Positions 1,741 through 41,885 of a stretch of 64,000 nt of DNA are shown piece after piece. The position numbers and the translations under genes were made by a program. The notes under the pieces were generated by a model. It saw only the letters and a program-made list of their open reading frames with translations, ran no database searches and was not told the origin of the DNA. Each line of letters opens with the position of its first letter. Positions within the stretch are counted from its first letter, which is position 1. The stretch is from Aureibaculum luteum (GTDB lineage: Bacteria > Bacteroidota > Bacteroidia > Flavobacteriales > Flavobacteriaceae): assembly GCF_003449015.1 (NCBI RefSeq), contig NZ_QRGD01000005.1, positions 186,001 to 250,000 on the forward strand, written 5' to 3'.

Positions 1741-3195
1741 ATGTCCAATTTTTTAAAATTAGTGCTACTTATTATTTCATTCTTCTTTATAAATTGTAAA
1801 AATGGTAAATCAGAAAAAGAAAACTTTGCTCAAAACAATACACGAGATATTGTAATCTCAGGTACAATGGATGCCGAATTGACTTCGCCACCGTTTGTCC
1901 CTGCTCCAGTGGGTAACAGAACAGCTAAGAAATTAATAGTAAATTTAGAAATAATTGAGAAAGAAGGTGTTTTATCTTCTGGGGTTAGCTATATGTATTG
2001 GACATTTGGTGGCACGGTACCTGGTAGTTTTATAAGAGCAAGGATTGGAGATGAAATACACTTTACACTTTCAAACCATCCCGATAATAAACTACCTCAC
2101 AACATTGATCTTCATGCCGTTAATGGTCCTGGAGGTGGTGCTGAATCTTCTTTTGTGGCACCCGGTTATGAAAAATTATTTTCTTTTAAAGCTCTAAATC
2201 CTGGCTTGTTTGTTTACCATTGTGCCACAGCTCCTGTTGGAATGCATATTGCAAACGGAATGTATGGTTTAATATTAATTGAACCGGAAGGTGGTTTACC
2301 AAAAGTAGATAAGGAATATTATATTATGCAAGGTGAATTTTATACTCCTGGTGAAATTGGTGATCGTGGTTTACAACCCTTTGACATGAAAAGAGCGATA
2401 AAAGAAGATCCGAATTATGTAGTTTTTAATGGATCAACTGATGCCTTATTAGGTGATAAAGCTATTACCGCAAAGTCAGGAGAAACTGTTCGGCTATTTG
2501 TCGGTAATGGAGGACCAAATTTAACATCATCATTCCATGTAATAGGTGAAATTTTTGATAATGTAAATATAGAAGGTGGCAGTACTATGAATCACAACGT
2601 ACAAACGACTTCAATTCCTTCTGGTGGTGCTGCCATTGTAGAATTTAAAGTTGATGTTCCTGGAAATCTTGTTATTGTTGACCATGCCATATTCAGGGCT
2701 TTTAATAAAGGAGCATTGGGAATTTTAAAAGTGGGTGGCGAAGAAGATAAACGAATTTATTCAGGGGTACGGCAAGAAGGTATTTACCATCCAGAAGGAG
2801 GAACTATACAAGAAATTCCGATTTCTAAAAGTGAGATCATCGAAACAGTTGTTAAAAAGACATTGGCGGAAAAAATAGAACATGGTAAAATAATATACAA
2901 CAGTACATGTTTAGCTTGTCACCAAGGGGAAGGTCAAGGGATTAAAGGTGTTTTTCCACCCTTAGCTAAATCAGATTATTTAAATGCTAATGTTAGTAGA
3001 GCTATTGATATAGTACTTCATGGTAAGAGTGGTGAAATAAAAGTAAATGGAGAGAAATATAACAATATAATGCCTAAACAAACCTTAACCGATAATGAAG
3101 TTATGGACGTACTTAATTATGTATATAATTCTTGGGGCAACAACAAAACAGAAATTACTTCAGAAATGGTAGCTAAAGTTAAAGCTTCAATGTAG
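1741..3195 (+). CDS. nirK: Copper-containing nitrite reductase (NO-forming) with C-terminal cytochrome c domain
   Basis: This 484-residue lipoprotein reduces nitrite to nitric oxide. A short hydrophobic leader ends at Cys19, a likely lipidation site. Two cupredoxin domains follow. Type 1 copper ligands are seen as His120, Cys161, His169 and Met174. Type 2 ligands are His125, His160 and His315, and the catalytic pair is Asp123 and His266. After about residue 375 there is a fused heme c domain with CLACH at 390-394 and a probable axial Met444. Heme c-tethered NirK is a known variant in which the extra domain can hand electrons to the copper core. It lies between nosY and a NirV-like gene, which places it in a denitrification cluster. 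No norB is visible in the window. Confidence 0.95.
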   Translation: MSNFLKLVLLIISFFFINCKNGKSEKENFAQNNTRDIVISGTMDAELTSPPFVPAPVGNRTAKKLIVNLEIIEKEGVLSSGVSYMYWTFGGTVPGSFIRARIGDEIHFTLSNHPDNKLPHNIDLHAVNGPGGGAESSFVAPGYEKLFSFKALNPGLFVYHCATAPVGMHIANGMYGLILIEPEGGLPKVDKEYYIMQGEFYTPGEIGDRGLQPFDMKRAIKEDPNYVVFNGSTDALLGDKAITAKSGETVRLFVGNGGPNLTSSFHVIGEIFDNVNIEGGSTMNHNVQTTSIPSGGAAIVEFKVDVPGNLVIVDHAIFRAFNKGALGILKVGGEEDKRIYSGVRQEGIYHPEGGTIQEIPISKSEIIETVVKKTLAEKIEHGKIIYNSTCLACHQGEGQGIKGVFPPLAKSDYLNANVSRAIDIVLHGKSGEIKVNGEKYNNIMPKQTLTDNEVMDVLNYVYNSWGNNKTEITSEMVAKVKASM

Positions 3196-5270: not shown

Positions 5271-6248
5271 ATGAATTCATTTTTACCAATTGTAGAAAAC
5301 TTGCCTATAGGGCATCCTGTGAAAGTTTATTATGAAGAAAGTAATTTAATTGAGAAGATTTTATCTGAATTAGTTGAAGCAGATCCGTCAGAAGATTTTC
5401 AAAAATATTTTAACATCTTTAATCAATTAACCACCATCGAAAAACGATTTTCAAGAAAAGAAAATCAATTATTCCCATATCTTGAAAAATATGACTGGAA
5501 AGGACCAAGTCAGGGAATGTGGTCTTTTCATGATACTTTACGCTCTCAAATAAGATTGCTTAATGACTATAATGCAAATAAAAATATAGAAAAGATAACG
5601 ATCAATATTCCTTATTTAATAGATGGTATAAAACGTTTATTAGCCATTGAGGACGCTAAATTATTTCCAAATGCAATGGAACTCCTTACCGATGAAGATT
5701 GGAAAGAGTTTTTTGAAGGTGATGAAGAAATTGGTTGGATGTTGACTCAAAAACCTTTGCCCTATCCTCCAATTGTAGAAGAAAAATACGTGCATCCAAG
5801 CGATGATTTCACACAACGTGAATTGTCTTTTTCATTGGAAAACACTTCACATTATGACGAGGGCTATATGACCCCTGAGCAAGTAAACCTACTTTTGCGG
5901 TTTTTACCTGTTGACATTACCTATGTCGATGAAAATGACAAGGTCATATTTTATAATAGGGGTGATAAAAGAGTTTTCCCACGCAGTAAAGGTATAATTG
6001 GACGTGAAGTCCGATTTTGTCATCCACCTAAAAGTGTTGATATGGTATTGAGAATTGTGGATGAATTTAGAAATGGCACCAAAAATGAAGCAGAATTTTG
6101 GACAAACTTCAAAGATAGGCTAATCCACATAAGATATTTTGCAATTAGGGATAATGATAAAAACTATAAAGGAGTTATTGAAATGTCTCAAGATGTTACT
6201 GATATACAAAAGTTAGAAGGACAGAAGCGTTTATTAGATTGGGATTAA
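5271..6248 (+). CDS. Hemerythrin-like/PAS domain protein of the DUF438-associated family
   Basis: The 325-residue protein has an N-terminal helical hemerythrin-like part (about residues 10-150) with spaced His and Glu residues (GHPVKVYYEE, IEKRFSRKENQLFPYLEK, FHDTLRSQI, AIEDAKLFPNAMELLTDEDW). It then has a PAS domain from about residue 195 (MTPEQVNLLLRFLPVDITYV) ending EMSQDVTDIQKLEG. Related proteins usually carry an additional N-terminal DUF438 domain, which is absent here. The family is thought to sense or bind O2 or NO through the di-iron site, but that role is not shown by the sequence. A perfect TGA-N6-TCA operator lies upstream, so expression under low oxygen by an Fnr-like protein is likely. 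No histidine kinase or cyclase output domain is present. Confidence 0.8.
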   Translation: MNSFLPIVENLPIGHPVKVYYEESNLIEKILSELVEADPSEDFQKYFNIFNQLTTIEKRFSRKENQLFPYLEKYDWKGPSQGMWSFHDTLRSQIRLLNDYNANKNIEKITINIPYLIDGIKRLLAIEDAKLFPNAMELLTDEDWKEFFEGDEEIGWMLTQKPLPYPPIVEEKYVHPSDDFTQRELSFSLENTSHYDEGYMTPEQVNLLLRFLPVDITYVDENDKVIFYNRGDKRVFPRSKGIIGREVRFCHPPKSVDMVLRIVDEFRNGTKNEAEFWTNFKDRLIHIRYFAIRDNDKNYKGVIEMSQDVTDIQKLEGQKRLLDWD

Positions 6249-6420
6249 GATTCCACAATGAGCAGTGATCAATTTAAATGATAATTAGCTTAGTGTAATG
6301 GCTTGTTTGAACTATCAAATTATTATTGGTGATTTTAATATTATCGAATAAAAAGATGCTAATAATCAGATTTTTAGTGCTACTAAATACTAATATTTTA
6401 ATTGCCAAATGTTTCTTAAA

Positions 6421-6475
6421 TAAGTAAAAACATGATGATTATCATGTTTTTACTTATTTGTTAATTCTACTTTTG
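6421..6475 (+). promoter_or_regulatory. Crp/Fnr-type operator with 15-bp perfect palindrome and -7 box
   Basis: Bases 6421-6435 and 6442-6456 form a perfect 15-bp inverted repeat around a 6-nt spacer; the inner halves read ACATGA and TCATGT. A -7 box TACTTTTG lies at 6468-6475, starting 29.5 nt from the dyad centre at 6438.5. The predicted transcript start near 6480 gives a leader of about 30 nt before the ATG at 6512. The palindrome is the longest of the four in the window. Because the match extends beyond the Fnr core it could also act as a small RNA hairpin, but it lies upstream of the predicted start. Confidence 0.85.
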
Positions 6476-6511
6476 ACTTTGCTAGGTTTATACAAATTTT
6501 AATCATAAAAC

Positions 6512-8320
6512 ATGACAAAAGCACATTCTTTTCATATACCTGTTATGGGTATCGGTTACACTATAGACACTCCTTATAAAGTTGCTCATTTAGGCATCGA
6601 TTCCGTTATTTCTTTAGTGGATGACATTTTACTTGAAAAACTCAGGAAAATGTATAGTGAAAAACTCGAAATTCCATATACTGCAATTACTGATAAAATT
6701 AATGATTTCAGAGCCAAACGAATTACGTCTTATTTAAATATGATGAATAATTTGGTCGATAAAAAATTTGAAGAATTAAAGAATTCAGCCGCTGATGTAA
6801 AAGATTATTTTAATCGGTTACCAGATAGCTCATCCATAAAAAAAGAGTTTAAAAAAATTACAGCGAATCATTTTAACTTGGATGATATAAGAACATGGAT
6901 TGACACTACGATTACCAAAGGTAGTATAGATGTTAATATCATGACCAAGGTTGACAAAGACAATTATATTGGTGACGAAAAATTACCTATTGAATTTAAT
7001 GATGCTCATGCTGCCTTAAGAGGTTTTGCCGAAAGCGATTTAAATGCCTCTGTAATTCTTTCTGCTGGTATGAACCCTAGACTTTATGCTTATCTTGAAA
7101 ACTTTGACGCATTTTATCCAAATGAAAAAGGTGAAGTTGACAAAAAGGTTGTTTTAAAAGTTAGCGATTATCGTTCTGCATTAATTCAGGGTAAATTTTT
7201 AGCAAAAAAAGGAATTTGGGTTTCAGAATATCGCGTTGAGTCCGGCTTAAATTGTGGTGGACATGCATTTGCAACTGATGGTAATTTATTAGGCCCAATA
7301 TTGGCAGAATTTAGAGACCATAAACAAGAAATTACGCAAACAGTTCATGAACTCTTAATAAAAACGTTAGCGGATAAAAACAAAACCGTCCCAAAAGAAC
7401 CTTTAGCTTTAAAAATAACAGCACAAGGTGGTGTTGGCACCTCTGAAGAGCATGACTTTTTATTAGATCATTACAAAGTTGATTCTGTAGGATGGGGTAC
7501 GCCATTTTTACTAGTTCCAGAAGCTACAACCGTTGATATTGATACCTTAGAAAAATTAGAAGACGCAAAAGAAAAAGATTTATACTTAAGTAATATCTCT
7601 CCTTTAGGAGTTCCTTTTAATAACCTGAGAGGAAATACAAAAGATGAACAAAAGTTTAAAAATATCGCAAAAAATAGACCTGGAAGTGCATGCCCAAAAA
7701 AATACGTAGCCTTAAACTATGAGTTTGATGAAAAAGGCCTGTGTACAGCTTCCAGACAATATCAGCATTTAAAACTGAAGAGCTTAGAAGAGCAGAATTT
7801 ATCAGAAATTGAACATGAAAAAGAATATACTAAAATTATAGAAAAATCTTGTGTTTGTGTTGGGTTAGGAACCTCTTCTTTATTGAGCCATGGTGTAGAA
7901 ACTAAAAAAGAAGGCACTGGTGTTTCTATTTGTCCTGGTCCTAATTTGGCGTATTTCTCTGATAAAATGAGTCTAAAAAACATAACTGACCATATTTATG
8001 GAAGAGCAAACATGATTTCTAGATCTGATAGACCTAATATGTTTATTAAAGAACTGAATATATATATTGAATATCTTAAAAACAAATTAGAAGAAACGGC
8101 AACTTCTATGGATGCCAAACAAGAAAAGTATTTTAAGAAATTTAGTAATAACCTAAATGAAGGAATTACCTATTATCACAATTTATTTAATTCAGTTACC
8201 GCAAATTTTAGAGATGCAAAGGTTTCTATTTTCAATGAACTTGAAACGAGTAAACGTAACTTGAAACAAATTGTAACTGATATAGACCAAATAAAAGAAA
8301 GTATGCTGGAAAAAGCATAA
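6512..8320 (+). CDS. Conserved-looking 602-residue cytosolic protein of unknown function, under Fnr-type control
   Basis: I do not recognise a characterised family. There is no signal peptide or membrane span. The first part (MTKAHSFHIPVMGIGYTIDT) reads like the opening strand of a TIM-barrel-like enzyme. Cysteines sit in glycine-rich turns: GLNCGGHAFA (Cys248), GSACPKKY (Cys394), Cys411, KSCVCVGLGTSSL (Cys447, Cys449) and VSICPGPNLAYF (Cys474), a pattern that could bind a metal or Fe-S cluster. AQGGVGTSEEHDFL near 304-317 resembles a nucleotide or flavin loop. The last 90 residues are charged helix. It is not an anaerobic ribonucleotide reductase, since the C-terminal glycyl radical motif is missing. 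The 15-bp Fnr-type palindrome upstream suggests induction at low oxygen. A strong terminator follows, so it is monocistronic. Confidence 0.75.
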   Translation: MTKAHSFHIPVMGIGYTIDTPYKVAHLGIDSVISLVDDILLEKLRKMYSEKLEIPYTAITDKINDFRAKRITSYLNMMNNLVDKKFEELKNSAADVKDYFNRLPDSSSIKKEFKKITANHFNLDDIRTWIDTTITKGSIDVNIMTKVDKDNYIGDEKLPIEFNDAHAALRGFAESDLNASVILSAGMNPRLYAYLENFDAFYPNEKGEVDKKVVLKVSDYRSALIQGKFLAKKGIWVSEYRVESGLNCGGHAFATDGNLLGPILAEFRDHKQEITQTVHELLIKTLADKNKTVPKEPLALKITAQGGVGTSEEHDFLLDHYKVDSVGWGTPFLLVPEATTVDIDTLEKLEDAKEKDLYLSNISPLGVPFNNLRGNTKDEQKFKNIAKNRPGSACPKKYVALNYEFDEKGLCTASRQYQHLKLKSLEEQNLSEIEHEKEYTKIIEKSCVCVGLGTSSLLSHGVETKKEGTGVSICPGPNLAYFSDKMSLKNITDHIYGRANMISRSDRPNMFIKELNIYIEYLKNKLEETATSMDAKQEKYFKKFSNNLNEGITYYHNLFNSVTANFRDAKVSIFNELETSKRNLKQIVTDIDQIKESMLEKA

Positions 8321-8336
8321 TTATAATAAAAATATC

Positions 8337-8374
8337 AATCCCCTTTTGTATACTGTACAGTAGGGGATTTTTTT
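8337..8374. terminator. Bidirectional intrinsic terminator between the 602-residue gene and nadB
   Basis: AATCCCCT at 8337-8344 and AGGGGATT at 8362-8369 form a perfect 8-bp stem with a 17-nt loop. T tracts follow on the + strand (8368-8374). It lies between two convergent genes and overlaps the last bases of nadB by two positions. Confidence 0.8.
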
Positions 8375-9962
8375 AGTTATCAATCAAATCCAAATTATAA
8401 AAACCTCCACAATTGGATTTTCTATTCTTTGAAAATTGGGTTATTAAATAGGCCGTTGTTATTAGGTTTCTTAATTCGCAAAGGTCTATAGATAATTCGG
8501 AATGATCATACAATCTTTTATTGTCTTCATACAAGCCTTTTAGCCTTCGTTCTGCTCTTAACAATCTTTCATCAGATCGTACGATACCTACATAATTACT
8601 CATTATTGTTTTAACTTCTGCCCTATCGTGCGTAATTAATATGTTTTCCATATTCTTAACAACACCACTATCATTCCAAACGGGAATATTATCTGGCATG
8701 TTCACCTTTACATACTTTTTAGATACATTTAAAAAAGCTCGGTGTGAATACACAAGAGCTTCTAATAATGAGTTTGATGCTAATCTGTTTGCACCATGTA
8801 AACCTGTTCTCGAAACCTCTCCACAAGCATATAAATTTTTGATTGATGTTTTTGCTTTCTTATTTACATTTACGCCTCCACATATATAATGTGAAGCAGG
8901 TACTACGGGTATAAAATCGTTGCGAATATCAATACCTAAAGAGGCACATTTCTCTGTAATATTTGGAAAATGGGCTTGAAATTTTTCAAAATCTAAATGC
9001 GTGCAATCTAAATATACATGGGCCGCACCACTCCTTTTCAATTCATTATCAATAGCTCTAGCCACAATATCTCTAGAAGCTAATTCTTCACGATCGTCAT
9101 AACGATGCATAAATTTTTGCTTCTTAAAATCTCTTAATTTAGCACCAAAACCTCTAACGGCTTCAGAAATTAAAAATGCCGGATATTCACCTGGGTTATA
9201 CAAGGCGGTTGGATGAAACTGAATGAACTCAACTTCAGATATTTCAGCTTTTGCCCTATAGGCTAATCCTAATCCGTCTCCTGTTGCTACTTCCGGATTT
9301 GTAGTCGTGGTATAAACCTGCCCACTTCCTCCTGTTGCTAACAAGGTGAATTTAGACACAAATGTTTTTACAACATTGGCTTTAGCATCCAAAACATAAG
9401 CTCCAAAACATGATAATTTAGAATTTCTTTTCGTTTTTTTCTTTTGAACTTGATGCTCTGTAATTAAATCAATGGCATAGTGATAGGTCAAGTAATTGAT
9501 ATTATCAGCTTCTTTAACTTGTTTAATCAAAGCCCGTTCTATTTCGCCACCAGTAATATCTTTATAATGTAAAACTCTATTTTGTGAATGACCACCTTCT
9601 TTACCTAAGTCAAAAGTTCCTTTCTTATTAGTATCAAATCTCGTACCCCAATCAATCAATTCTTGAATTCTGGTCGGAGCATCTTTTATAACCATACGCA
9701 CCACCTTTTCGTCACACAAGCCATCTCCTGCAACCAACGTATCTTCAATATGTTGCTCAAAAGTATCTACTGATTGATTATAAACAGAAGCAATTCCGCC
9801 TTGAGCATATTTGGTGTTAGATTCATCTATCTCATTTTTTGTAATAATAGTAACGGTGGCATCTTTATATTTTTCAGCTATTTTTAAAGCAAAACTTAAT
9901 CCTGAAATACCAGAACCCAATACCAAAAAATCCGTTTTATACAATTCTGTATTACTTTTCAT
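8373..9962 (-). CDS. nadB: L-aspartate oxidase, first step of NAD biosynthesis from aspartate
   Basis: The 529-residue flavoprotein oxidises L-aspartate to iminoaspartate. It has an N-terminal FAD-binding motif VLGSGISGLSFALKIA, then NTKYAQGGIASV, GGHSQNRVLHYKDITG, EFIQFHPTALY, SEAVRGFGAKL, SHYICGGVNVN and LYACGEVSRTGLHGANRLASNSLLEALV, which is the NadB rather than succinate dehydrogenase pattern. The C-terminal helical domain is intact and ends NCGGFYNLDLID. It lies 6 bp after nadA in the same operon, so the two enzymes make quinolinate together. No nadC is visible in the window. Confidence 0.96.
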   Translation of the reverse strand: MKSNTELYKTDFLVLGSGISGLSFALKIAEKYKDATVTIITKNEIDESNTKYAQGGIASVYNQSVDTFEQHIEDTLVAGDGLCDEKVVRMVIKDAPTRIQELIDWGTRFDTNKKGTFDLGKEGGHSQNRVLHYKDITGGEIERALIKQVKEADNINYLTYHYAIDLITEHQVQKKKTKRNSKLSCFGAYVLDAKANVVKTFVSKFTLLATGGSGQVYTTTTNPEVATGDGLGLAYRAKAEISEVEFIQFHPTALYNPGEYPAFLISEAVRGFGAKLRDFKKQKFMHRYDDREELASRDIVARAIDNELKRSGAAHVYLDCTHLDFEKFQAHFPNITEKCASLGIDIRNDFIPVVPASHYICGGVNVNKKAKTSIKNLYACGEVSRTGLHGANRLASNSLLEALVYSHRAFLNVSKKYVKVNMPDNIPVWNDSGVVKNMENILITHDRAEVKTIMSNYVGIVRSDERLLRAERRLKGLYEDNKRLYDHSELSIDLCELRNLITTAYLITQFSKNRKSNCGGFYNLDLIDN

Positions 9963-13480: not shown

Positions 13481-13689
13481 TGAAGCAATTAGCAGAGTTT
13501 GTCAAAGAACGGAGAAAAGAAGTTAATCTGACTCAGAAAGAATTCGCTGAACGAGCAGGAGTAGCACTAACTGTAGTGCGTAAAATCGAACAGGGTAAAA
13601 CGAATCTAAATATGGATAAGGTAAATCTAGTTCTTAATATGTTTGGACATGAATTAGCTCCTGTTAATAGTAAAAAACGGGCTGAATGA
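13480..13689 (+). CDS. hipB: HipB-like HTH antitoxin/autorepressor of a HipBST system
   Basis: This 69-residue protein is essentially one Cro/C1-type helix-turn-helix (FVKERRKEVNLTQKEFAERAGVALTVVRKIEQGKTNL). It is shorter than E. coli K-12 HipB and lacks an extended C-terminal tail. It overlaps hipS by 4 bp (ATGA). In HipBST systems HipB binds the operator and, through HipT, forms a repressing complex. Inverted repeats cover the promoter just upstream. Confidence 0.88.
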   Translation: MKQLAEFVKERRKEVNLTQKEFAERAGVALTVVRKIEQGKTNLNMDKVNLVLNMFGHELAPVNSKKRAE

Positions 13690-14024
13690 GAAAGGGAAAG
13701 GTATTTTATAAAAACCATTTGGCTGGCATTATTACGGAGACGAATGAGGGCGAATATGAATTTCAATATAACAATCAATACGCCAAAGATCATCCAAATG
13801 ACTTCATTACGTTCACTATGCCAGTTAGAGAGAAGCCATATAAAGAGAAGCGACTCTTTCCTTTTTTTGAAGGATTGATACCTGAAGGGTGGTTGTTAGA
13901 TATAGCTTCCAAAAACTGGAAAATCAATAAAAATGATCGTATGGGATTACTTCTGACCTGCTGTCAGAATTGTATCGGTGCAGTAAGTGTGGAACCTATA
14001 ACAGAAGAAGAAAATGAAGCATAA
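13686..14024 (+). CDS. hipS: HipS, stand-alone HipA N-subdomain antitoxin
   Basis: The 112-residue protein equals the N-terminal subdomain of HipA only: RKGKVFYKNHLAGIITE, DFITFTMPVR, LFPFFEGLIPEGWLL, and NDRMGLLLTCCQNCIGAVSV. It overlaps hipB by 4 bp and hipT by 11 bp. In characterised HipBST systems this piece has separated from the kinase and acts as the antitoxin. The split here looks natural rather than a frameshift, since both open frames are intact and the downstream frame starts with its own ATG and CxxC-containing segment. Confidence 0.88.
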   Translation: MRKGKVFYKNHLAGIITETNEGEYEFQYNNQYAKDHPNDFITFTMPVREKPYKEKRLFPFFEGLIPEGWLLDIASKNWKINKNDRMGLLLTCCQNCIGAVSVEPITEEENEA

Positions 14025-14961
14025 ATGCTTATATTGTTATGAACCTGTTGAAAATGAACTGGACTTTCACGAAAAGTGTTCAATTGAATTCTTTGGAACA
14101 CCAACATCTCCTAAAATTGAATATTCGCTTGACCAAATGGACGAACTTGCGAAAAATGTCGTAGAGCGAAGTATTGCTATCCCAGGAGTTCAGCCGAAAC
14201 TATCTATGTCTATGGTCAAAGAAACCAAGGAGAATTCGGATACACGACTGACTGTAGTTGGTGCATTAGGTGGACAATTTATATTTAAACCACCTACTGA
14301 CAGATTTCCAGAAATGCCTGAAAACGAACATGTAACAATGCGAATAGGTGAAGCTTTAGGAATTCGAGTAGTACCATCATCATTGATTCGAATTTTATCT
14401 GGAGAACTTTCCTATATAACTAAACGAGTTGACCGAACAGAAACTGGAGAAAAAATCCACATGCTCGATATGTTTCAGATCACTGAAGCATTTGATAAGT
14501 ATAAAGGTTCAATGGAGAAAATTGGAAAAGCATTAGACCACTATTCTAGTAACACATTGCTTGATAAAACCTTTTTCTTTGACTTAGCTCTTTTCTCCTT
14601 TTTAACGGGAAATAGCGATATGCACTTAAAGAACTTCTCGATGATCGAAAGCCCTTCTGGTTGGATTTTGTCTCCTGCCTATGATCTTTTGAATGTTGCA
14701 ATTGTGTTTCCAGAAGATACAGAAGAACTTGCACTGACAATAGTTGGGAAGAAAAAGAAGTTAAAACGTGAACACTTTGAACAGTTCGCAGAAGGATTAG
14801 GATTAACTCCTAAACAAATTAAAGGAGCTTTTAATCGAATGATAAAGAATAAATCAAAAGCATTCAATTGGATTGATCGATCGTTTCTATCAAATGAAAT
14901 GAAAACTGCCTATAAAGAGTTGCTAAAAAGTAGATACAAACAATTAGGACATAAAGAATAA
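14014..14961 (+). CDS. hipT: HipT, serine/threonine kinase toxin of a HipBST system
   Basis: The 315-residue HipA-like kinase lacks the N-subdomain. It begins with a small cysteine-bearing segment (Cys5, Cys8, Cys22). The Gly-rich loop region is RSIAIPGVQPKLS (about residues 52-64), the catalytic segment is LTGNSDMHLKNFSM, and the metal-binding DFG-equivalent is SPAYDLLNV. In E. coli O127 HipT the loop is preceded by a two-serine SIS motif used for autophosphorylation; here Ser53 is present but the second position is Ala55. Known HipT phosphorylates tryptophanyl-tRNA synthetase; the target here is unknown. It is the last gene of the operon. Confidence 0.88.
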   Translation: MKHKCLYCYEPVENELDFHEKCSIEFFGTPTSPKIEYSLDQMDELAKNVVERSIAIPGVQPKLSMSMVKETKENSDTRLTVVGALGGQFIFKPPTDRFPEMPENEHVTMRIGEALGIRVVPSSLIRILSGELSYITKRVDRTETGEKIHMLDMFQITEAFDKYKGSMEKIGKALDHYSSNTLLDKTFFFDLALFSFLTGNSDMHLKNFSMIESPSGWILSPAYDLLNVAIVFPEDTEELALTIVGKKKKLKREHFEQFAEGLGLTPKQIKGAFNRMIKNKSKAFNWIDRSFLSNEMKTAYKELLKSRYKQLGHKE

Positions 14962-20356: not shown

Positions 20357-21667
20357 ATGAACGAAGACTTGAGAGAAAAAATATTATCCGACTTGAATGG
20401 TCGGAATTATCAAGAATCAACTGTAAAAAATTACTCAAGTCAGTTATTCCAATTGTTCGACTATTATTCGTCAATTAATCCTTTGGATATAACAAACAAA
20501 CAGGTTAGCAAATATGCCCAATCCCTAATCACCCAAAAAAAATCAAGGTCTACAGTCAAAACACTTATTTACGCTTGTAACTTCTTTTTTGACGAATTAA
20601 ATAATAAAAAACACGGATTATATAAGTTCAAATTACCACCCGAAAAACCAAAAAAGGCAGAATTTTTCACTCAAAGCGAAATCTTGGAACTTATTGAGAC
20701 CAAGCAAAACTTAAAACATAAGTCCATAATTCTATTAATGTATTCAAGTGGATTAGAGATTGGAGAATTATTGAATTTAAAAGTAGAAAATATCAGGTCA
20801 AAGGAAAAAAGACCAAACATTCAGGTTCACGATAATAAAGGACAAATTAAAAGAAAAGCATTTCTATCTAAAAGAGTTCTTCCGACTTTAAGAGATTATT
20901 ATTTTGCTTATGAACCAACTAATTGGCTCTTTTATAGTCCAGATGATAAAAACAAACAATACTCACCTACAAGTGTGAGGAAAATGATTGATACTTCTGT
21001 AAAGGAACTTAATATGAGTCCATTACTCAAGTCTAAATCAATTAGACATTCTTATATCAAGCATTTAAATGAGCTCGGAGTTCCTTTAATAAAAATTTTA
21101 GGGAGTCTTTCTTTAGAATCGTATGATACTCATTTAAAGTATTCCAAATTAATTCACGGAACTGATGAAATATATTTTTCGCCTCTTGACAAACGTTTAA
21201 ACGAAGAAATACAAGTTGAAGATTTTAAAGACCTTGAACATCTTGTGTTTGAATTAGAAGACAAAAACGAAATTGATTACTTAATGGAAGGATTAGATTG
21301 TTTCAGATGTGGAGCATTAAGAGCAGGAGTCATTTTTATTTGGTCTGCTTCAATAAAAAACATTAGGCAGAAGATAATAGATTCCACAAAATTAGTTGAA
21401 ATAAACAAGGAACTTCAAATCATTGAACCTAAAGCTAAAAAAATAAAAAATGTAGAGAGTTTTGAATTTATAAAAGATGAAACTACTCTTCATTTAAGTC
21501 AAAAAGTAGGTCTTTACGACAAATTTGAAAAGAACGAACTAATTAATAGTTGTCTAGGTTTAAGAAATAAATGCGGACATCCTTCAAATTATAAACCGGA
21601 AATTCAGAAAGTAAAGGCATTTGTCGAAGACATTTTGAACTTGGTGTATAAAAAAAACATTGCCTAA
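20357..21667 (+). CDS. Degenerate tyrosine recombinase fused to a HEPN-like domain
   Basis: The 436-residue protein has a SAM-like N-terminal domain (residues 5-95) and a tyrosine-recombinase catalytic fold (105-265). The catalytic set is damaged: the first arginine position is Glu134 (SSGLEIGELLNL), the HxxR histidine is Lys227 (KSIR, Arg230 kept), and the LGH histidine is Ser250 (LGS). The candidate nucleophile Tyr262 remains (HLKYSKL). Residues 290-436 form a second helical domain with LRNKCGHP, an Arg403-x4-His408 motif typical of HEPN RNase-like proteins. The cassette ends overlap the stop codon. Strand exchange activity is unlikely; DNA binding coupled to a HEPN effector is a plausible inference. 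Confidence 0.72.
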   Translation: MNEDLREKILSDLNGRNYQESTVKNYSSQLFQLFDYYSSINPLDITNKQVSKYAQSLITQKKSRSTVKTLIYACNFFFDELNNKKHGLYKFKLPPEKPKKAEFFTQSEILELIETKQNLKHKSIILLMYSSGLEIGELLNLKVENIRSKEKRPNIQVHDNKGQIKRKAFLSKRVLPTLRDYYFAYEPTNWLFYSPDDKNKQYSPTSVRKMIDTSVKELNMSPLLKSKSIRHSYIKHLNELGVPLIKILGSLSLESYDTHLKYSKLIHGTDEIYFSPLDKRLNEEIQVEDFKDLEHLVFELEDKNEIDYLMEGLDCFRCGALRAGVIFIWSASIKNIRQKIIDSTKLVEINKELQIIEPKAKKIKNVESFEFIKDETTLHLSQKVGLYDKFEKNELINSCLGLRNKCGHPSNYKPEIQKVKAFVEDILNLVYKKNIA

Positions 21668-22074
21668 CACCAGTAATCGTTGCACAAGTATCAAAAATGA
21701 CATATTAACCAAATAATCGGCTTGATTGTAGCTATTTAAAGAGACACTATAATTTTTTTCAACTAGATTACCACCTTGTTTTGCACTTAAGAAGTACCAC
21801 GGTAAAAAACAACCAAAACACACTCTTTTTCACACTACACTTACACCATAGTTATTAACCAATTCTTCTATTTGCTTTATTACAATTTTATTGCTACATT
21901 TGAAAGGCTGTCGCTAAATAAAACCCTACTCCAACCCAATTGAAGTGCTGTTCTCTTTAGCTTCTTAATTCAAGAAAAAACTATAATAAGCATAACGGAA
22001 ATAAACGCTCCCGAAGCATCGAGACGTTTAGCCAACCTTACAAGAGAATTAAACACATTGCGTTTATACAATTG
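21666..22074 (+). repeat. Cassette-repeat unit E (complete, about 409 nt)
   Basis: The unit starts AACACCAGTAATCGTTGCAC and carries the conserved 3' module from about 21887. Its hairpin at 22004-22028 is in the inverted inner orientation and is followed by a 40-nt insertion (from about 22029 to 22062) that begins GCCAACC and repeats the GTTTA flank. The insertion may be the relic of a deleted cassette end. Confidence 0.7.
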
Positions 22075-22098
22075 TTGGCAAACATTAAAAAAAACTGA

Positions 22099-24678
22099 AT
22101 GGAATACTACCCTTTAAAAAAACTTAAAGAAAAAGTTGAACTATCAAAGCAGGAATCTGACTTAAGCTATTTTTATGAGTTATTAAATTATGCAGAATTT
22201 CTTACAAAGAACATTACACTTTTTCTTGTGTCTACGATAAACGAAGATTCAGAAAGAACAAAATATCGTTATCAATATAATTTATGTAGAGCGAATGCTT
22301 TAGGTGATTTTTCAAAGGCCATTGATGATATAGTAATTGGACCAGCTTCACAATTAATGACATCAAACATTAGAGACTATGAACTTAAGGAATTAACGCA
22401 AAGATGCAGTAAAGGTGATTGGCAATATGATTGCCAAGTACTAATGGATGAATGTCTTTCAATATTTAAAATTGAGCATAATAAATTATCTACTAAAAGC
22501 CCATTGAGAAACTGGTTTATTTTATTAACACAGTTGAGAAATAAAACCAAAGGACACGGAGCTCCAAATATTGATTGTTGTAATCAAGCTTGTCCCAAAT
22601 TAGAAAAATCAATTGAACTAATTACTGATAATTTTAGTGCATTTAAAAGGACTTGGGCATATTTACATCAAAATCTATCAGGAAAATATAGAATTTCTCA
22701 TCTAACACAAGACAATGAAAAAAAATTCGATACACTAAAAAAAGAAAACTCTTTTAATTTGCCGAATGGAATTTATGTTTATTTAGACGAGCCGAGAAAA
22801 ATAGATTTGTTTTATTCAAATGCAGAATTAACCGATTTTTGGATAACGAATGGTAATTTGAAAGGCGACAGATTTGAAACACTATCTTATATTAGTGATG
22901 AACGAATTTACAAATCAGCTCAAGCCTATTTAATTCCTATAACTCAGCTTCCAAAAAGCCACACTGAAGGAGTTAAAGATTTAAATGTTATAGGCAATTG
23001 TTTAACAAATTTACCTAGTTCGCCTGAATTATACGTAAAAAGAAAAGACCTAGAGGAGGAACTTAAGTCAACTTTACTGCAAGAAGATAGATTCCCAATA
23101 GTTACGCTTTTAGGAAAAGGAGGAGTTGGTAAAACATCACTTGCTATAAATTTGATAACTAATATTGCCAATAGTGAAAGATTTGAATTAATTATCTGGT
23201 TCAGCTCACGAGATATTGACTTGTTAATAGATGGCCCAAAACAAGTTCAAACTAAGGTTTTAAAAATTGAAGATATGGCAAAAGACTATTGTTCATTGCT
23301 CTATCCAGATGCTAAAAAACCTGAATATGAACAATTATTTGCAAATGATTTAACTAAAAACACTTTTGGTAAGTCGTTATATATATTTGATAATTTCGAA
23401 ACCATAACAAATCCAGTTGAGGTTTTCGAATGGATAAATACTTACATAAGAAACCCAAACAAAGTTTTAATTACATCGAGGATAAGCAGGAATTTCAAGG
23501 CTGATTATCCCATTGAAGTACAAGGAATGTCAGATGAAGAATGTAAAGAATTAATTAATGAATTTGCAAAAGAATTAAATATAACAAGTTATCTAACAGA
23601 TAATTATATTCAAGAATTAATTTTAGAATCTGATGGACATCCGTATATTATAAAAATTTTATTAGGTGACGTTGCTAGAAATAAAAAAGTAAACAAAATC
23701 AAACGTGTAGTTGCTGAACAAGAAAAAATATTAGATGCTTTATTTAAGAGAACATTTAACACTCTTTCGCCTGCAGCTAAAAGAGTTTTTCTAACACTTT
23801 GTAGCTGGAATTCGATGGTTCCCACAATCGCCTTAGAAGCTGTTTTATGGAGACCAGAAAACGAAAAAATGAATGTTCAATCTGCTATCGAAGAATTGAG
23901 ACAAAGTTCATTTATTGAAATAATTACAAAAGAAGATGACGAAATAATAAATGTTCCATTAGCAGCAACTATTTTTGGTAAAGGAGAATTAGAAATCAAT
24001 CCAGATAAAATTAAAATTATGTCGGATCGAGACCTTCTAATGGAATTTGGTACTACAACATTTAATAATTTAAGTTCTGGTCTATCTATCCAAATAGAAA
24101 GAAAATTTAAATCAATCGCTAAAAGAATAAAATCTATAGCAGAGTTTGAAAACGAATTACCACTATTAGAATACATTGCGTCAAAATATCCAAAAACATA
24201 CAAGTATATTATTGAAGTTTTTGAAGAATACGATGACTATGAAAAAATAAAATATTATTTACGAGAGTATATAAAGTCTAATATTCCAGCTAATGAAAAA
24301 TCTCGTTTATGGCATAAACTTGCAGCAGTTTGCAGATATAGTAAAGATTGGGATGGTGAGAGCCACGCTTTGACAGAACTGATACAGTTACCTAATGTAA
24401 GCCTAGAAGAAATCAGCGAAGCTGCAAACAGAATTAACAATCATTTCTATCATAATATGGCCGCCAAGAGAGATGAATATAAAACAGAAATGCTAGATTT
24501 AATAATTAAAATATTTACCTCAAAAATAAGTGATGGTAACGCTACAGATTATTCAAGGTTAGGTTGGTTATTACTTAATAATAATAATAGACCTGAAGCA
24601 AAAAAGATGGCGGAAAAAGGCTTAAAACTTGATATAACTAACAATTATTGTCAACGACTAATTGAAATATTAGAATAA
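22099..24678 (+). CDS. HEPN-like/STAND NTPase, probable anti-phage defence protein
   Basis: The 859-residue protein has three parts. Residues 1-200 are helical and contain LRNKTKGHGAP with Arg147-x5-His153, the HEPN nuclease pattern. Residues about 310-620 form a STAND-type P-loop NTPase with Walker A LGKGGVGKTS (338-347), Walker B LYIFDNFE near 427, an Arg finger-like TSRISRNF and GHPYIIKILLGDVA. Residues about 640-859 are helical repeats suited for ligand sensing. Such effector-NTPase-sensor proteins (Avs/NLR-like) usually kill or arrest the cell on phage detection. The gene is bracketed by GTTGGCAAAC and its complement and is the last cassette. The HEPN call rests on the motif and helix content only. 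Confidence 0.75.
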   Translation: MEYYPLKKLKEKVELSKQESDLSYFYELLNYAEFLTKNITLFLVSTINEDSERTKYRYQYNLCRANALGDFSKAIDDIVIGPASQLMTSNIRDYELKELTQRCSKGDWQYDCQVLMDECLSIFKIEHNKLSTKSPLRNWFILLTQLRNKTKGHGAPNIDCCNQACPKLEKSIELITDNFSAFKRTWAYLHQNLSGKYRISHLTQDNEKKFDTLKKENSFNLPNGIYVYLDEPRKIDLFYSNAELTDFWITNGNLKGDRFETLSYISDERIYKSAQAYLIPITQLPKSHTEGVKDLNVIGNCLTNLPSSPELYVKRKDLEEELKSTLLQEDRFPIVTLLGKGGVGKTSLAINLITNIANSERFELIIWFSSRDIDLLIDGPKQVQTKVLKIEDMAKDYCSLLYPDAKKPEYEQLFANDLTKNTFGKSLYIFDNFETITNPVEVFEWINTYIRNPNKVLITSRISRNFKADYPIEVQGMSDEECKELINEFAKELNITSYLTDNYIQELILESDGHPYIIKILLGDVARNKKVNKIKRVVAEQEKILDALFKRTFNTLSPAAKRVFLTLCSWNSMVPTIALEAVLWRPENEKMNVQSAIEELRQSSFIEIITKEDDEIINVPLAATIFGKGELEINPDKIKIMSDRDLLMEFGTTTFNNLSSGLSIQIERKFKSIAKRIKSIAEFENELPLLEYIASKYPKTYKYIIEVFEEYDDYEKIKYYLREYIKSNIPANEKSRLWHKLAAVCRYSKDWDGESHALTELIQLPNVSLEEISEAANRINNHFYHNMAAKRDEYKTEMLDLIIKIFTSKISDGNATDYSRLGWLLLNNNNRPEAKKMAEKGLKLDITNNYCQRLIEILE

Positions 24679-26329: not shown

Positions 26330-29300
26330 ATGATTAAAACTAACACAAAGAAAATCACTACAATATTAAAAAAACTTAAAAACGAAAAAATAAATACTTG
26401 GTTTGATCTTGGTTTATTTATTGATAAATTTAAAGAACAAAATTCAACATCAGCCTTTAAAGGTGACCTTCCTGCATATGATGCTAATATTGAAAAAGGA
26501 GGCATTGCTTTTTTAACCTTTTACTTCACCATAGACGGCATAACTGTAGAAACAGAAAAGTATGCCAAAACCTTTAAAAAAATATATCCTAACATTCCTA
26601 TTCATTTTATTGCTGGAGATATAAAGCAAGAGGCAGATGAATTAATACCGAAAGATGCCTCAAGAAAAGTGATTCCAGAAATGGAAGCTTTTGATGCTTG
26701 GCCATTATATGACGATTTCTTTAGAATAAAAATGGAACGTGGTAGTGAAGAATATAATAACCTTATTGGTAAGTTTTGGAATGAAGTGCTAGTGTTAGTA
26801 GAAAAACTGGGTAGCTATATTGAAGAGAATGATATTTCGATATTGTATTTAATCAATGTATGTTCTAACCCTGGTAATGTTTCATTGGCATTGGCTACCG
26901 TGTTAATTTCAGAATATTTAGGCATACCTGTTATTAATAACAATCACGATTTTTATTGGGAAGGTGGCAATAGAGCTATTGATATTAAAAAGAAAGGCTT
27001 AAAAAAAGGCCCTAGAGATTTCTTTTTCCACAATGCACATGTGGGTGAATTTTTCTCCATTATTGAAATGATATATCCATGGGAAAGTCGCTCTTGGATG
27101 AACGTAAATATCAATAAAATACAGCAAAACCATCTTATTGATATCAATGGTCATAATCCCGCAAATGTTGCCTTATTAGGAACTGCGGTAGATACCAAAA
27201 TGCACCAAATGAGTAAGCGTGATATTATCAAAGCGTTTATGCAAGTCTCCTCTATTTTTGCCAATAAAAAAGAGACCATTACCGTACATACTGCCGCAAA
27301 TCATACCGATAGCCAACGTTCTTTAAAACCTATATTATTAGGTCACAAAACGATTCGGAAATTCGATTTCGTAAATAACAATATCATTTTTTTACAACCT
27401 ACACGGATTATAAGTAGAAAATCTATCGAGCTTAATTTCAAGCTCATTAAACGCTTATTTTCCTATGATTCCTTTGCTGATAAATTTATTACAAATCCGC
27501 AATTGAAATTATCCTTAATAGTATCTGGTCCCATTCCTCATGGGCAACAGCATTATTATCAAGACTTAAAAACCGATTTTAAAAACTTTCTAAAAGAACT
27601 TCCTAAAGAATTTAAATCGAGAGTACTTCTCGGATTTTTATTTAGTGAATTTGATAAAAATGATTTTAAGAAAAAATATAAAAAACCATTAGACATTGAG
27701 CAACTTTACGATGTAGCCTCTTTAATTTTATTACCCAGTCAAACTGAAGGTAGAGGCTTACCTATTATTGAAGCGGCCGCATGTGGTACACCTATATTTT
27801 GTAGACAATACGAACCAAGAGAAGTGTATGACGAAGTTATTGGTCGTCATTTAGATAAATCGCTACGTTTAAATGTACTTGAATTTAAAGGATCTAAGGT
27901 TCCTAAAAAACTAGCAGAAAGTATTTGTGATCACGTTTTTTATCCTCAAAATAGAATGGTTGATGTAACACATAATAGAAGTGTTATAAATAAGCGTTAC
28001 AGTTTAGAAGCCTTACAAAAAAACATGCAATATATTCTTGGTAGAATGCATTTACAGTTAGGTGCAATATCAAATAATGTTAATGGTCAAGTAGTTGATT
28101 TATTGAAAGATTACAAAGAGATGGTCAATTTTGAAAATGACGACTTACATGCTCTACTAAATAAAGAAGCGAGGCATTATTTACCTGGTTATGGTAGGTT
28201 GTCTTTTATGACGTATTTAAAATCATTAATTGATCCAAGTTTTTTTAGAGTGGAAGAACAACTTATAAAAGGAATGGTGATGAGTTATGCTCGAATGATG
28301 GAAAATGATATTCCTGACCTTGTAAACACCGACTTAAAACTGATTCATAAGTATTATAATGCCATTGATGATATTTTTAAATATGTTGATGGAGAATTTG
28401 CCATTAGACACGATCATGCCTTAGCATACAGACATAGAAACAAAAAAAAGTATGCCTATCAAGATTTTACCTATCAAGAAGTTACGGGTTTGGTAAACAT
28501 GATTTATAGTGATATTTTTAAACCAGAAAACTTACCCGATTTAACATTAGCTCCTCAATTTTTTGCCGATTGGGAATTGGCTTTATTTCAATTGACCAAC
28601 AGTAAATATTTAGGTATTGACGATCGAAAAATACTAACCCAAAAATTAAAAAATAATGTCCCAAAAGGATATTTCCCAGGACGTTTTATTAAACATGAAT
28701 TAGAATATTTTGTACTGCAACCTATTCGTGCACAACTCAAGCTTAAAATAGAAGAAGAACTTACCGCTGAAGTCCTTAAAGAAAAAGGACAGCACTTAGA
28801 AAAAGTTTATATTTTTATTCATGAACCAAGAATTACAAAATGGTTTTCTAATGCCAATATTAAAGAGTATTTAGAAAGCGAGAAAGAGCCCGAACTTGGT
28901 TTATTATTTAAGTCAGGCGTTGTACAAATCATAGAAACAAAACAATGGTCTGAAGGTGTTCATTTTCCACAAATGGGTGCAAAAGCAATTAAAATATTGC
29001 GTAACATTAAAGAAGCTAACGGTTTTATTATTACCAATGGCGAGTATGCCGCAATGATGACTGACATTATTGAAATTGATCATTTTCATATTGGTAAAGT
29101 AATGCATCAAATGACAGCTAAAATTATGGGCATTCCTAAAGATAGTGGTTTCATACAGTTTGTGCCTTCAGCGGTACGCACAACATTAGCCTTTCCTACC
29201 CCTATTCAAACGGCGAAAGATTTTGATATCGTTTTAAAAAGTGATTTGTTTCAAACACTTAAAAATAAGCTTGGTGAAAAAGAGTTGTTTGCTAGAATCT

Positions 29301-30523
29301 CTAAAGATGCTATTGAAAACGGTACGCCAATCAAGAAGTTATTAGAACACATAGAGACCAATTTAAAAGAGACTAAAACTGTCGAAAAAGTAACATCTTC
29401 ATTTGCTGGAGGTGTGTATGAAGATGGTTTACCTTGGAGTGGTGTATTGGCTGAAATTGATACCAAAAAACACCAGTGGAAATTCGCAGCACATATTGCC
29501 AACAAAGAGCCTAAAAATGTACCTTCTCTCGTTAAGGAATATCAAAAGAAAAGTAAAAACCCAAATAAGATTGAATTAGCTTGGAATGGTGGCTATATCT
29601 TAAATCCTGAATTGGTGGGTAAATTAGGCTTGCCAGAAACGTATATTGGCTCACCGTTAGGCCTTTTAATCATGAACAATAAGGTGTTTTGTCCACCGCT
29701 TTTTAATAAACCTGCATTTATCATCTATAAAAATGGCGATGTAGATATTCGAAAAGTAAATAGTAAGGCTGGTTTTATAGTAAAAGGAAAACAAGAAGTC
29801 TTATCGTTTGCCGCTAGCCAGTATAACAAACACAATGACACAGCACCTTGCTTTTATGATTTATCGTATACAGATGAGACCATAGAAGGTAACGGCAACG
29901 TTATTGTAAGAATTGCTGGACATACCGTTAAGCAAATTATTGAAACGAAACCTAAAGAAGTAGTACCGATAATTCCAGTAGGTATTACACTCTCCATTCC
30001 TTCACAATTGTTTTCAAAAGACATTTTTAAAGAAGGAAAGCCCTTAGATATTCAGTTATTAGAACCTGAAACCAATCCTTATAATTGGGATAAGATATCT
30101 TATGCCATAGAAGCCGGACCGATGCTAATTGATGGCGGCAAGCAAATTTTAAATATGGAAGATGAAGGTTGGAAAACATCAAACTCTATTAAAACACAAG
30201 CGGCACGATTAGACTTTACAGATATGCGTGGGCCTAAAATAGCCGTGGGTATTACCAAAGAAGGTAAACTGATGGTACTTATGGTAAATGGACGTATAAG
30301 AGAGTCTGTCGGAGCTACGCATTTTGATATGGTAGACATTCTGTTAAAGTATGGGATGGAAAAAGCCATGGGCTTTGATCCAGGAGGAAGCAGTACTTTG
30401 GTTGTTGATGGAGAAATTATGAATATTTCACCTTACAATAAGAATTACGAGGAAGACATTATCTCATTACCACCAGAACCTCGGTTTGTTGCCAATGCCA
30501 TTATGGGATGGATTGAGGACTAA
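26330..30523 (+). CDS. 1397-residue fusion: GT4 glycosyltransferase, unknown middle region, phosphodiester glycosidase (NAGPA) domain
   Basis: Three regions are visible. Residues about 50-585 are a GT-B glycosyltransferase with NNHDFYWEGGNR, IFLQPTRIISRKSIELNFKL and LPSQTEGRGLPIIEAAACGTP (E-x7-E near 475-483). Residues about 590-1020 are unassigned and contain KVYIFIHEPRITKWFSNANI and FIQFVPSAVRTTLAFPTP. Residues about 1020-1397 are a phosphodiester glycosidase domain with YAIEAGPMLIDGG, RGPKIAVGITKEGKLMVLMV and MGFDPGGSSTLVVDGE, the motifs of the family that includes the human uncovering enzyme. There is no signal peptide or membrane span, which is unusual for a NAGPA domain. The gene directly follows the related GT4 gene. 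Confidence 0.8.
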   Translation: MIKTNTKKITTILKKLKNEKINTWFDLGLFIDKFKEQNSTSAFKGDLPAYDANIEKGGIAFLTFYFTIDGITVETEKYAKTFKKIYPNIPIHFIAGDIKQEADELIPKDASRKVIPEMEAFDAWPLYDDFFRIKMERGSEEYNNLIGKFWNEVLVLVEKLGSYIEENDISILYLINVCSNPGNVSLALATVLISEYLGIPVINNNHDFYWEGGNRAIDIKKKGLKKGPRDFFFHNAHVGEFFSIIEMIYPWESRSWMNVNINKIQQNHLIDINGHNPANVALLGTAVDTKMHQMSKRDIIKAFMQVSSIFANKKETITVHTAANHTDSQRSLKPILLGHKTIRKFDFVNNNIIFLQPTRIISRKSIELNFKLIKRLFSYDSFADKFITNPQLKLSLIVSGPIPHGQQHYYQDLKTDFKNFLKELPKEFKSRVLLGFLFSEFDKNDFKKKYKKPLDIEQLYDVASLILLPSQTEGRGLPIIEAAACGTPIFCRQYEPREVYDEVIGRHLDKSLRLNVLEFKGSKVPKKLAESICDHVFYPQNRMVDVTHNRSVINKRYSLEALQKNMQYILGRMHLQLGAISNNVNGQVVDLLKDYKEMVNFENDDLHALLNKEARHYLPGYGRLSFMTYLKSLIDPSFFRVEEQLIKGMVMSYARMMENDIPDLVNTDLKLIHKYYNAIDDIFKYVDGEFAIRHDHALAYRHRNKKKYAYQDFTYQEVTGLVNMIYSDIFKPENLPDLTLAPQFFADWELALFQLTNSKYLGIDDRKILTQKLKNNVPKGYFPGRFIKHELEYFVLQPIRAQLKLKIEEELTAEVLKEKGQHLEKVYIFIHEPRITKWFSNANIKEYLESEKEPELGLLFKSGVVQIIETKQWSEGVHFPQMGAKAIKILRNIKEANGFIITNGEYAAMMTDIIEIDHFHIGKVMHQMTAKIMGIPKDSGFIQFVPSAVRTTLAFPTPIQTAKDFDIVLKSDLFQTLKNKLGEKELFARISKDAIENGTPIKKLLEHIETNLKETKTVEKVTSSFAGGVYEDGLPWSGVLAEIDTKKHQWKFAAHIANKEPKNVPSLVKEYQKKSKNPNKIELAWNGGYILNPELVGKLGLPETYIGSPLGLLIMNNKVFCPPLFNKPAFIIYKNGDVDIRKVNSKAGFIVKGKQEVLSFAASQYNKHNDTAPCFYDLSYTDETIEGNGNVIVRIAGHTVKQIIETKPKEVVPIIPVGITLSIPSQLFSKDIFKEGKPLDIQLLEPETNPYNWDKISYAIEAGPMLIDGGKQILNMEDEGWKTSNSIKTQAARLDFTDMRGPKIAVGITKEGKLMVLMVNGRIRESVGATHFDMVDILLKYGMEKAMGFDPGGSSTLVVDGEIMNISPYNKNYEEDIISLPPEPRFVANAIMGWIED

Positions 30524-41835: not shown

Positions 41836-41885
41836 CAAAAATAAGATAATACACTACTCATAAAACATGACTTTTATCATGTTTT
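41836..41885 (-). promoter_or_regulatory. Crp/Fnr-type operator and promoter of the ccoS-ccoNO-ccoQ-ccoP operon
   Basis: AAAACATGA (41862-41870) and TCATGTTTT (41877-41885) form a perfect 9-bp inverted repeat with 6-nt spacer. On the minus strand a -7 box TATTTTTG lies at 41836-41843, 30.5 nt from the dyad centre. The predicted transcript start near 41831 gives a 20-nt leader before ATG 41810. Confidence 0.88.

Follow-up and report, generated by a model that had tools for sequence, protein, structure and literature searches.

We conclude, with high confidence, that a single gene at positions 6512-8320 (+) of the 64-kb window of the Aureibaculum luteum genome that we analysed (the whole stretch of 64,000 nucleotides) encodes a flavoenzyme of the nitronate monooxygenase (NMO) superfamily, probably carrying an Fe–S cluster. 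As to what this enzyme does, we favour, at slightly short of an even chance, a FabX-like flavoenzyme for O2-independent unsaturated-fatty-acid synthesis, which would act as an acyl-thioester dehydrogenase/isomerase. We are fairly sure of the enzyme class and infer the substrate. Our evidence is computed and comprises remote homology, the predicted fold, conserved residues, a recurring operator core and genomic context. The original prediction had described a 602-aa open reading frame (ORF) with cysteines at residues 248, 394, 411, 447, 449 and 474; its coordinates, length and cysteines were all confirmed, and the protein has no other cysteines.

Searches of Pfam, NCBIfam and, by sequence, the PDB returned no significant match to the 602-aa protein, and the weak matches fell mostly in helical or coiled-coil regions. 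The protein was absent from the nine PF03060 matches of its own genome at E 10, and the NCBIfam FabK model TIGR03151 did not match it at E 1. None of the 296 Bacteroidota genomes sampled, which include 112 that carry the gene studied here, gave a match to the PfaD model TIGR02814 at E 1e-20. A plasmid search gave one chance match only, to an EAL protein, and no paper on the family was recognised in the literature searched, which took in few subscription papers. The earlier statement that the protein belongs to no known family thus holds for the HMM libraries but not in substance, as profile comparison, structural alignment and a tree all place it as a remote relative of FabX and the nitronate monooxygenases. 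Although it has no Pfam or NCBIfam label, the family was matched in 112 of the 296 genomes and in 66 of 139 genera; among the 112 carriers, G290 has just a fragment of 137 residues, and an internal stop interrupts two matches. For the named genomes, we took the best 80 of 401 stretches encoding a relative. The gene is single-copy in nearly all carriers, and A. flavum A20 encodes a protein that is 99% identical. In genome G095 (contig C1:4371176-4372868), a second copy broken by stops lies beside an intact one, as if it were a decaying paralogue.

To model the protein, we used AlphaFold2 on 81 sequences (model 1; pLDDT 74.6, pTM 0.80). An (alpha/beta)8 barrel was predicted, with eight strands in order (residues 5-8, 31-34, 139-144, 180-184, 212-217, 237-242, 301-305 and 325-329) and helices at 38-133 between strands 2 and 3, and the top structural matches came from the FMN nitronate-monooxygenase superfamily; residues 448-479 had a pLDDT below 50. 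VIA-align ranked H. pylori FabX (7e1q) best for model 1 (Z 18.6, rmsd 3.5, 318 residues aligned), with an alignment that spans FabX residues 5-363 and includes the Fe–S subdomain, followed by FabK (17.1), PA1024 (16.0) and PfaD (15.0). Foldseek alone returned PfaD and DfnA/MlnA enoyl reductases as all eight of its matches below E 0.001 (3e-7 to 1e-4). A second and poorer model, of residues 1-505 (pLDDT 69, pTM 0.67), gave a tie between PfaD (15.6), the MlnA enoyl reductase (15.4) and FabX (14.6), the alignment stopping at FabX residue 283, short of the Fe–S domain. Judged on these predicted structures, membership of the superfamily is firm, and FabX as the nearest relative is favoured, not proven.

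We compared profiles using hhalign. A profile of FabX with 29 FabX-like proteins of Bacteroidota matched the target family at E 2.7e-8 when the target profile held 110 sequences and at 5.5e-9 when it held 150; the corresponding values were 5e-5 and 3.3e-5 for 14 NMOs, 0.0044 and 0.0011 for FabX with two short FabX-like proteins, and 0.033 and 0.0033 for the 420-aa FabX-like proteins of Bacteroidota alone (27 proteins, L140-L166, 37-41% identical to FabX). The controls, which belong to the 110-sequence profile, were 20 neighbour families and four reversed profiles, all of which scored E 0.0052 or worse (reversed FabX, 0.21), so that with this profile the combined FabX and the NMO profiles stand clear and the two partial profiles do not. 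Sequence identity between the 602-aa protein and FabX is ~18%. In an LG+G4 tree built from 15 of the 150 target proteins, 7 of the 27 420-aa proteins, 3 FabX and 14 NMO (39 sequences in all), the target, the 420-aa type and FabX separated from the NMOs with a bootstrap of 93, and the target joined the 420-aa type with only 73; the target branch is very long, and long-branch effects are therefore possible.

Conservation was assessed in alignments of homologues (Table 1). None of the six cysteines varies, either in a first set of 110 proteins or in a later one of 150, which reaches down to 41% identity and includes a few near-duplicates. Also invariant among the 150 are G249-G250-H251, Q305-G306-G307, S363-P364-L365-G366 and others; SPLG is therefore found in every one, and the full SPxGxP in 138. 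Cys248 stands three residues before the catalytic His in all 150 target proteins, at a position that is Ser or Ala in three FabX rows and Ala in 27 of 27 proteins of the 420-aa type and 13 of 14 NMOs. The remaining NMO-type protein, L122, has Cys there (C-A-G-H). Between the aligned anchors of the strand 2-3 segment we counted 107 residues in the target, 51 in FabX and 66 in a protein of the 420-aa type. The FabX spacing C-x3-C-x3-C-x11-C is absent, and five invariant cysteines with another spacing occupy the equivalent domain. C394 is aligned with FabX C300 in both the hhalign and the MAFFT view; the partner of FabX C320 differs, being C447/C449 in the former and C411 in the latter. The motif K-[ST]-C-x-C-x-G was found in 96 of 150 target proteins, 23 of 27 of the 420-aa type and none of 14 NMOs. 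A metal or flavin enzyme had been proposed, and our results support both at once: an FMN-type barrel, and a cysteine domain located where FabX has its [4Fe-4S] cluster.

Table 1 Features of the gene, its product and the operator cores, in window coordinates
Feature	Position	Strand	Basis or remark
Gene for the 602-aa FabX-like / NMO-superfamily protein	6512..8320	+	ORF, homologue alignment, AlphaFold, VIA-align, profile comparison, tree
Palindrome with 19-nt arms and Fnr-type core ACATGATGATTATCATGT (core 6430-6447)	6418..6459	.	Centre 73 bp before ATG
Helical segment, residues 38-135, between barrel strands 2 and 3	6623..6916	+	Secondary structure; about twice FabX length
C-G-G-H, residues 248-251	7253..7264	+	His251 aligns with FabX catalytic His182
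QGGVGT, residues 305-310	7424..7441	+	Aligned with GG motif of NMO/FabX (FMN site)
SPLGVP, residues 363-368, start of C-terminal domain	7598..7615	+	Equivalent of FabX SPVGYP
Cysteine domain, residues 391-478, probable Fe–S site	7682..7945	+	C394-x16-C411-x35-C447-x-C449-x24-C474; aligned with FabX C300-C320 domain
C-terminal helical tail, residues 505-602, beyond the FabX end	8024..8317	+	Model and alignment
Second zero-mismatch operator core	41865..41882	.	Starts 275 bp before start codon of ORF 39440-41590 (-)

The gene lies behind a perfect Fnr-type palindrome, as had been predicted, with arms of 19 nt rather than 15 (6418-6436 and 6441-6459, 100% complementary, 4-nt loop). Zero-mismatch copies of ACATGA-N6-TCATGT occur twice in the window, here and upstream of an ORF whose sequence we read as that of a cbb3 oxidase; with three mismatches allowed, the core showed no excess over chance in the window (45 versus 42). 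The gene had also been placed alone between a terminator and a promoter. It does stand alone, as its upstream neighbour ends at 6248 and a convergent nadB ORF begins at 8373, but the only terminator-like site called in 6200-8450 is the palindrome itself. In A. flavum A20 the palindrome core is kept with outward arms of only 6 nt, and the long arms are particular to the Aureibaculum luteum strain. Since the core, unlike the long arms, persists in relatives, we favour an operator and disfavour a terminator.

We then looked upstream of the orthologues. The core TGA-N6-TCA was present within 250 bp of 70 of 109 orthologues (related sequences, several from one genus, rather than 109 independent cases), compared with a mean of 7.2 and a maximum of 14 in 200 Markov-shuffled runs, and its median centre lies 78 bp before the start codon. 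It occurred in 57 of 80 orthologue upstreams versus 76 of 497 control upstreams, which came from other genes at the same loci and were mostly intergenic; 23 of these 76 belong to ppc genes that diverge from the orthologue and have the same upstream region. The core fades with distance (8 of 40 loci at 41-53% identity). TTGA-N6-TCAA was found in none of the 109 upstreams, and a scan for TTGAT-N4-ATCAA with mismatches differed little from chance. The recurring operator form is TGA-N6-TCA. As far as an operator sequence can tell, low-oxygen control of the gene is supported.

Reading the translations, we identified before the gene nosF/nosY-like ORFs (200-1694, with an ABC_tran match for the first), a nirK-like ORF (1741-3195), SUMF-like and SCO-like ORFs and a hemerythrin/PAS gene, the last assigned by Pfam, and after it, in convergent orientation, nadB-nadA. 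With nosZ 2.7 kb beyond the left edge of the window, the predicted setting next to denitrification genes was borne out, and in A. flavum the orthologue stands directly behind nosDFY-like genes. From its translation, ORF 1741-3195 resembles a NirK-type copper nitrite reductase that seems to carry a cytochrome c domain (CLACH) at its C terminus. Further translations in the window suggested a 1397-aa glycosyltransferase-like ORF fused to other domains (26330-30523) behind a second glycosyltransferase-like gene, two adjacent ORFs of 112 and 315 aa resembling a split HipA-type pair (13686-14961), and, behind a tyrosine-recombinase-like gene, an 859-aa P-loop ATPase similar to STAND/NACHT proteins (20357-24678), possibly an island.

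To define the wider context, we compared 121 loci, with about 9 kb on each side where present. The neighbours were nadA/nadB (42 loci), ppc (33), Rrf2 (25), nos (16) and a norQ/D or COX3-like gene (11), and more rarely moa (7), cbb3-type (7), RIC-like (6) and nrdD (6) genes; 38 loci had one or more of the nos, nor, moa, nrdD, RIC or cbb3 families nearby. Pfam was run on one representative each of ppc, Rrf2, nosF, nosZ, norQ, norD, nrdD, moaA and the COX3-like gene, and the other labels were read from sequence. No fatty-acid gene was seen among the recurrent neighbours. In five loci (L015, L041, L045, L062 and L069), an NRDD (anaerobic ribonucleotide reductase) gene lies upstream of the target gene. 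The hemerythrin/PAS gene, which the original prediction had proposed to check for co-occurrence along with nirK and nosZ, is adjacent only in the Aureibaculum luteum strain and in none of the other 80 loci.

An association with nosZ was found. Across the 296 genomes, in tests that ignore phylogeny, nosZ occurred in 100 and both genes in 56 (Fisher p 8e-6); they lie within 20 kb of each other in 17 of these 56, in four families. The other 56 of the 112 carriers lack nosZ. Of the claim of a dedicated low-oxygen gene next to denitrification genes, low-oxygen control is supported by the recurring upstream core, and 'dedicated' is too narrow. FabX-type genes (E 1e-25) were present in 29 genomes, 25 of them from one family, and the target gene in none of the 29 (p 7e-7). 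NrdD, used as an anaerobic marker, showed no association (both genes in 8 of 18 NrdD genomes, p 0.62). Acyl-ACP desaturase was found in 81 genomes, and 54 of these carry the target gene versus 58 of the 215 without it (p 6e-10). In the 14 genomes with both genes on one contig, the nearest pair is 95 kb apart, which indicates no physical link. The host genome has one acyl-ACP desaturase and three FA_desaturase matches, and nothing in it scored over the cut-off for FabA. In another Bacteroidota genome (G238 C3:1059970-1062169), FabX-type and acyl-ACP desaturase matches are convergent neighbours 233 bp apart.

FabX and NGO1024 (UfaA) of Neisseria gonorrhoeae offer precedents, and the host is similarly placed, with O2-dependent desaturases and without a recognised FabA; for this reason we adopted O2-independent unsaturated-fatty-acid synthesis as our reading. 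The model that we propose involves FMN and Fe–S binding, a regulator, a substrate, a reaction and an electron acceptor. The barrel would hold FMN, with His251 as the catalytic base, and in the C-terminal subdomain four of the five cysteines 394/411/447/449/474 would ligate an Fe–S cluster. Like FabX, the enzyme may dehydrogenate an acyl thioester, of which acyl-ACP is the likeliest, by removal of two hydrogens, and move the double bond so that a cis-unsaturated intermediate open to elongation results, while flavin and cluster would relay the electrons to an acceptor other than O2. An Fnr/Crp-type regulator would switch the gene on at low oxygen alongside respiratory genes, and unsaturated fatty acids could then still be made by a bacterium whose desaturases depend on O2 and in which no FabA was recognised. 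With distinctly less assurance, we also offer the doubtful extension that these proteins form a separate deep class of FabX-type FMN/Fe–S enzymes, marked by the invariant Cys248, which in facultatively anaerobic Bacteroidota would make unsaturated fatty acids without O2 or FabA and pass the electrons to the denitrifying or another respiratory chain.

The fold and the gene neighbourhood also admit other readings. The same class of enzyme could work outside fatty acids, in a redox step that needs no O2 and is connected with NAD synthesis or with nitrogen-oxide metabolism; we consider this unlikely but worth serious attention, as it would explain the nadA/nadB neighbours (42 of 121 loci) as well as nos, nor and moa, but the neighbours vary by lineage, a pattern more in keeping with a common low-oxygen regime than with a single pathway. 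It also counts against this reading that both NadB and NadA are complete enzymes by themselves. We give a smaller chance to an enzyme with the same fold and cofactors that acts as a trans-acting enoyl reductase like PfaD/FabK and reduces enoyl-ACP at low oxygen. All of the significant Foldseek matches were enoyl reductases and PfaD tops the second model, but the FabK model does not match the protein, the PfaD model does not find the family, and the target has invariant cysteines where FabX has its Fe–S domain.

A nitronate monooxygenase, or a PA1024-like NADH:quinone reductase, that detoxifies nitro compounds or reactive nitrogen from denitrification is improbable. The NMO profile match (E 3.3e-5), the PA1024 structural score (Z 16.0) and the genomic link to nitrogen-oxide respiration speak for it; against it, the protein falls outside the PF03060 matches of its own genome, and the tree groups it with FabX. 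An enzyme that uses O2, as NMO does, would also be unexpected from a low-oxygen gene. We set aside a canonical nitronate monooxygenase on account of the better fit of the FabX-type profiles and the tree. Finally, the long helical segment and tail might suggest a barrel turned sensor or structural protein rather than an active flavoenzyme, but we think this very improbable given the aligned catalytic His, the FMN-loop glycines and the cysteines, all invariant in 150 of 150 homologues.

Should FabX-like, O2-independent synthesis prove right, it would explain the membrane fluidity of O2-desaturating flavobacteria during denitrification and supply FabX chemistry with a second answer to the electron-acceptor problem. 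With another substrate, the family would still represent a new probable FMN/Fe–S branch that is linked to low-oxygen genes of a major phylum.

Among known systems, NMO (PF03060) shares with the target the barrel, GGH, GG-I/V-x-T and G-S/T-x-F, but S-[PT]-x-G-x-P is absent from the 14 compared, which have no more than two cysteines beyond residue 220, and the target has no PF03060 HMM match. The PfaD and DfnA/MlnA enoyl reductases are its best Foldseek matches, whereas the PfaD model misses the target family; we know of no Fe–S domain in these reductases. The 420-aa FabX-like proteins are presumably the kind named FabX in PMC11300592. Like the target, they have C-x-C with an earlier Cys pair (27 of 27), N-x-M-x-K and, in their case, a segment of intermediate length; S-[PT]-x-G-x-P is found in 27 of 27 and SPxGxP proper in only 5. 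Unlike the target, they have an extra CxxC and lack the long tail. NGO1024 of Neisseria gonorrhoeae is reported to be induced anaerobically (PMC3032703) and is said to be indispensable for making unsaturated acyl chains under anaerobic conditions, the acceptor being unknown (PMC11300592, citing Isabella and Clark 2011). By these accounts, we liken the target to it as an anaerobically induced NMO-type gene for anaerobic unsaturated fatty acids (PMC3032703, PMC11300592). As reported in PMC8626469, H. pylori FabX makes unsaturated fatty acids via FMN and Fe–S, requires O2, binds its [4Fe-4S] cluster through C300, C304, C308 and C320, and uses His182. This acyl-ACP dehydrogenase/isomerase (HP0773, PDB 7e1q) shares with the target the NMO-type barrel, the His of GGH, SPxGxP and the C-terminal cysteine domain, and in model 1 the target matches it structurally over the whole FabX chain. 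The target differs in its cysteine spacing (x16/x35/x1/x24 versus x3/x3/x11), a strand 2-3 segment that is 56 residues longer, a 98-residue tail and Cys248 before GGH, and it presumably cannot rely on O2. With this spacing and an identity of ~18%, we do not class the protein as FabX, and we propose that it works like FabX.
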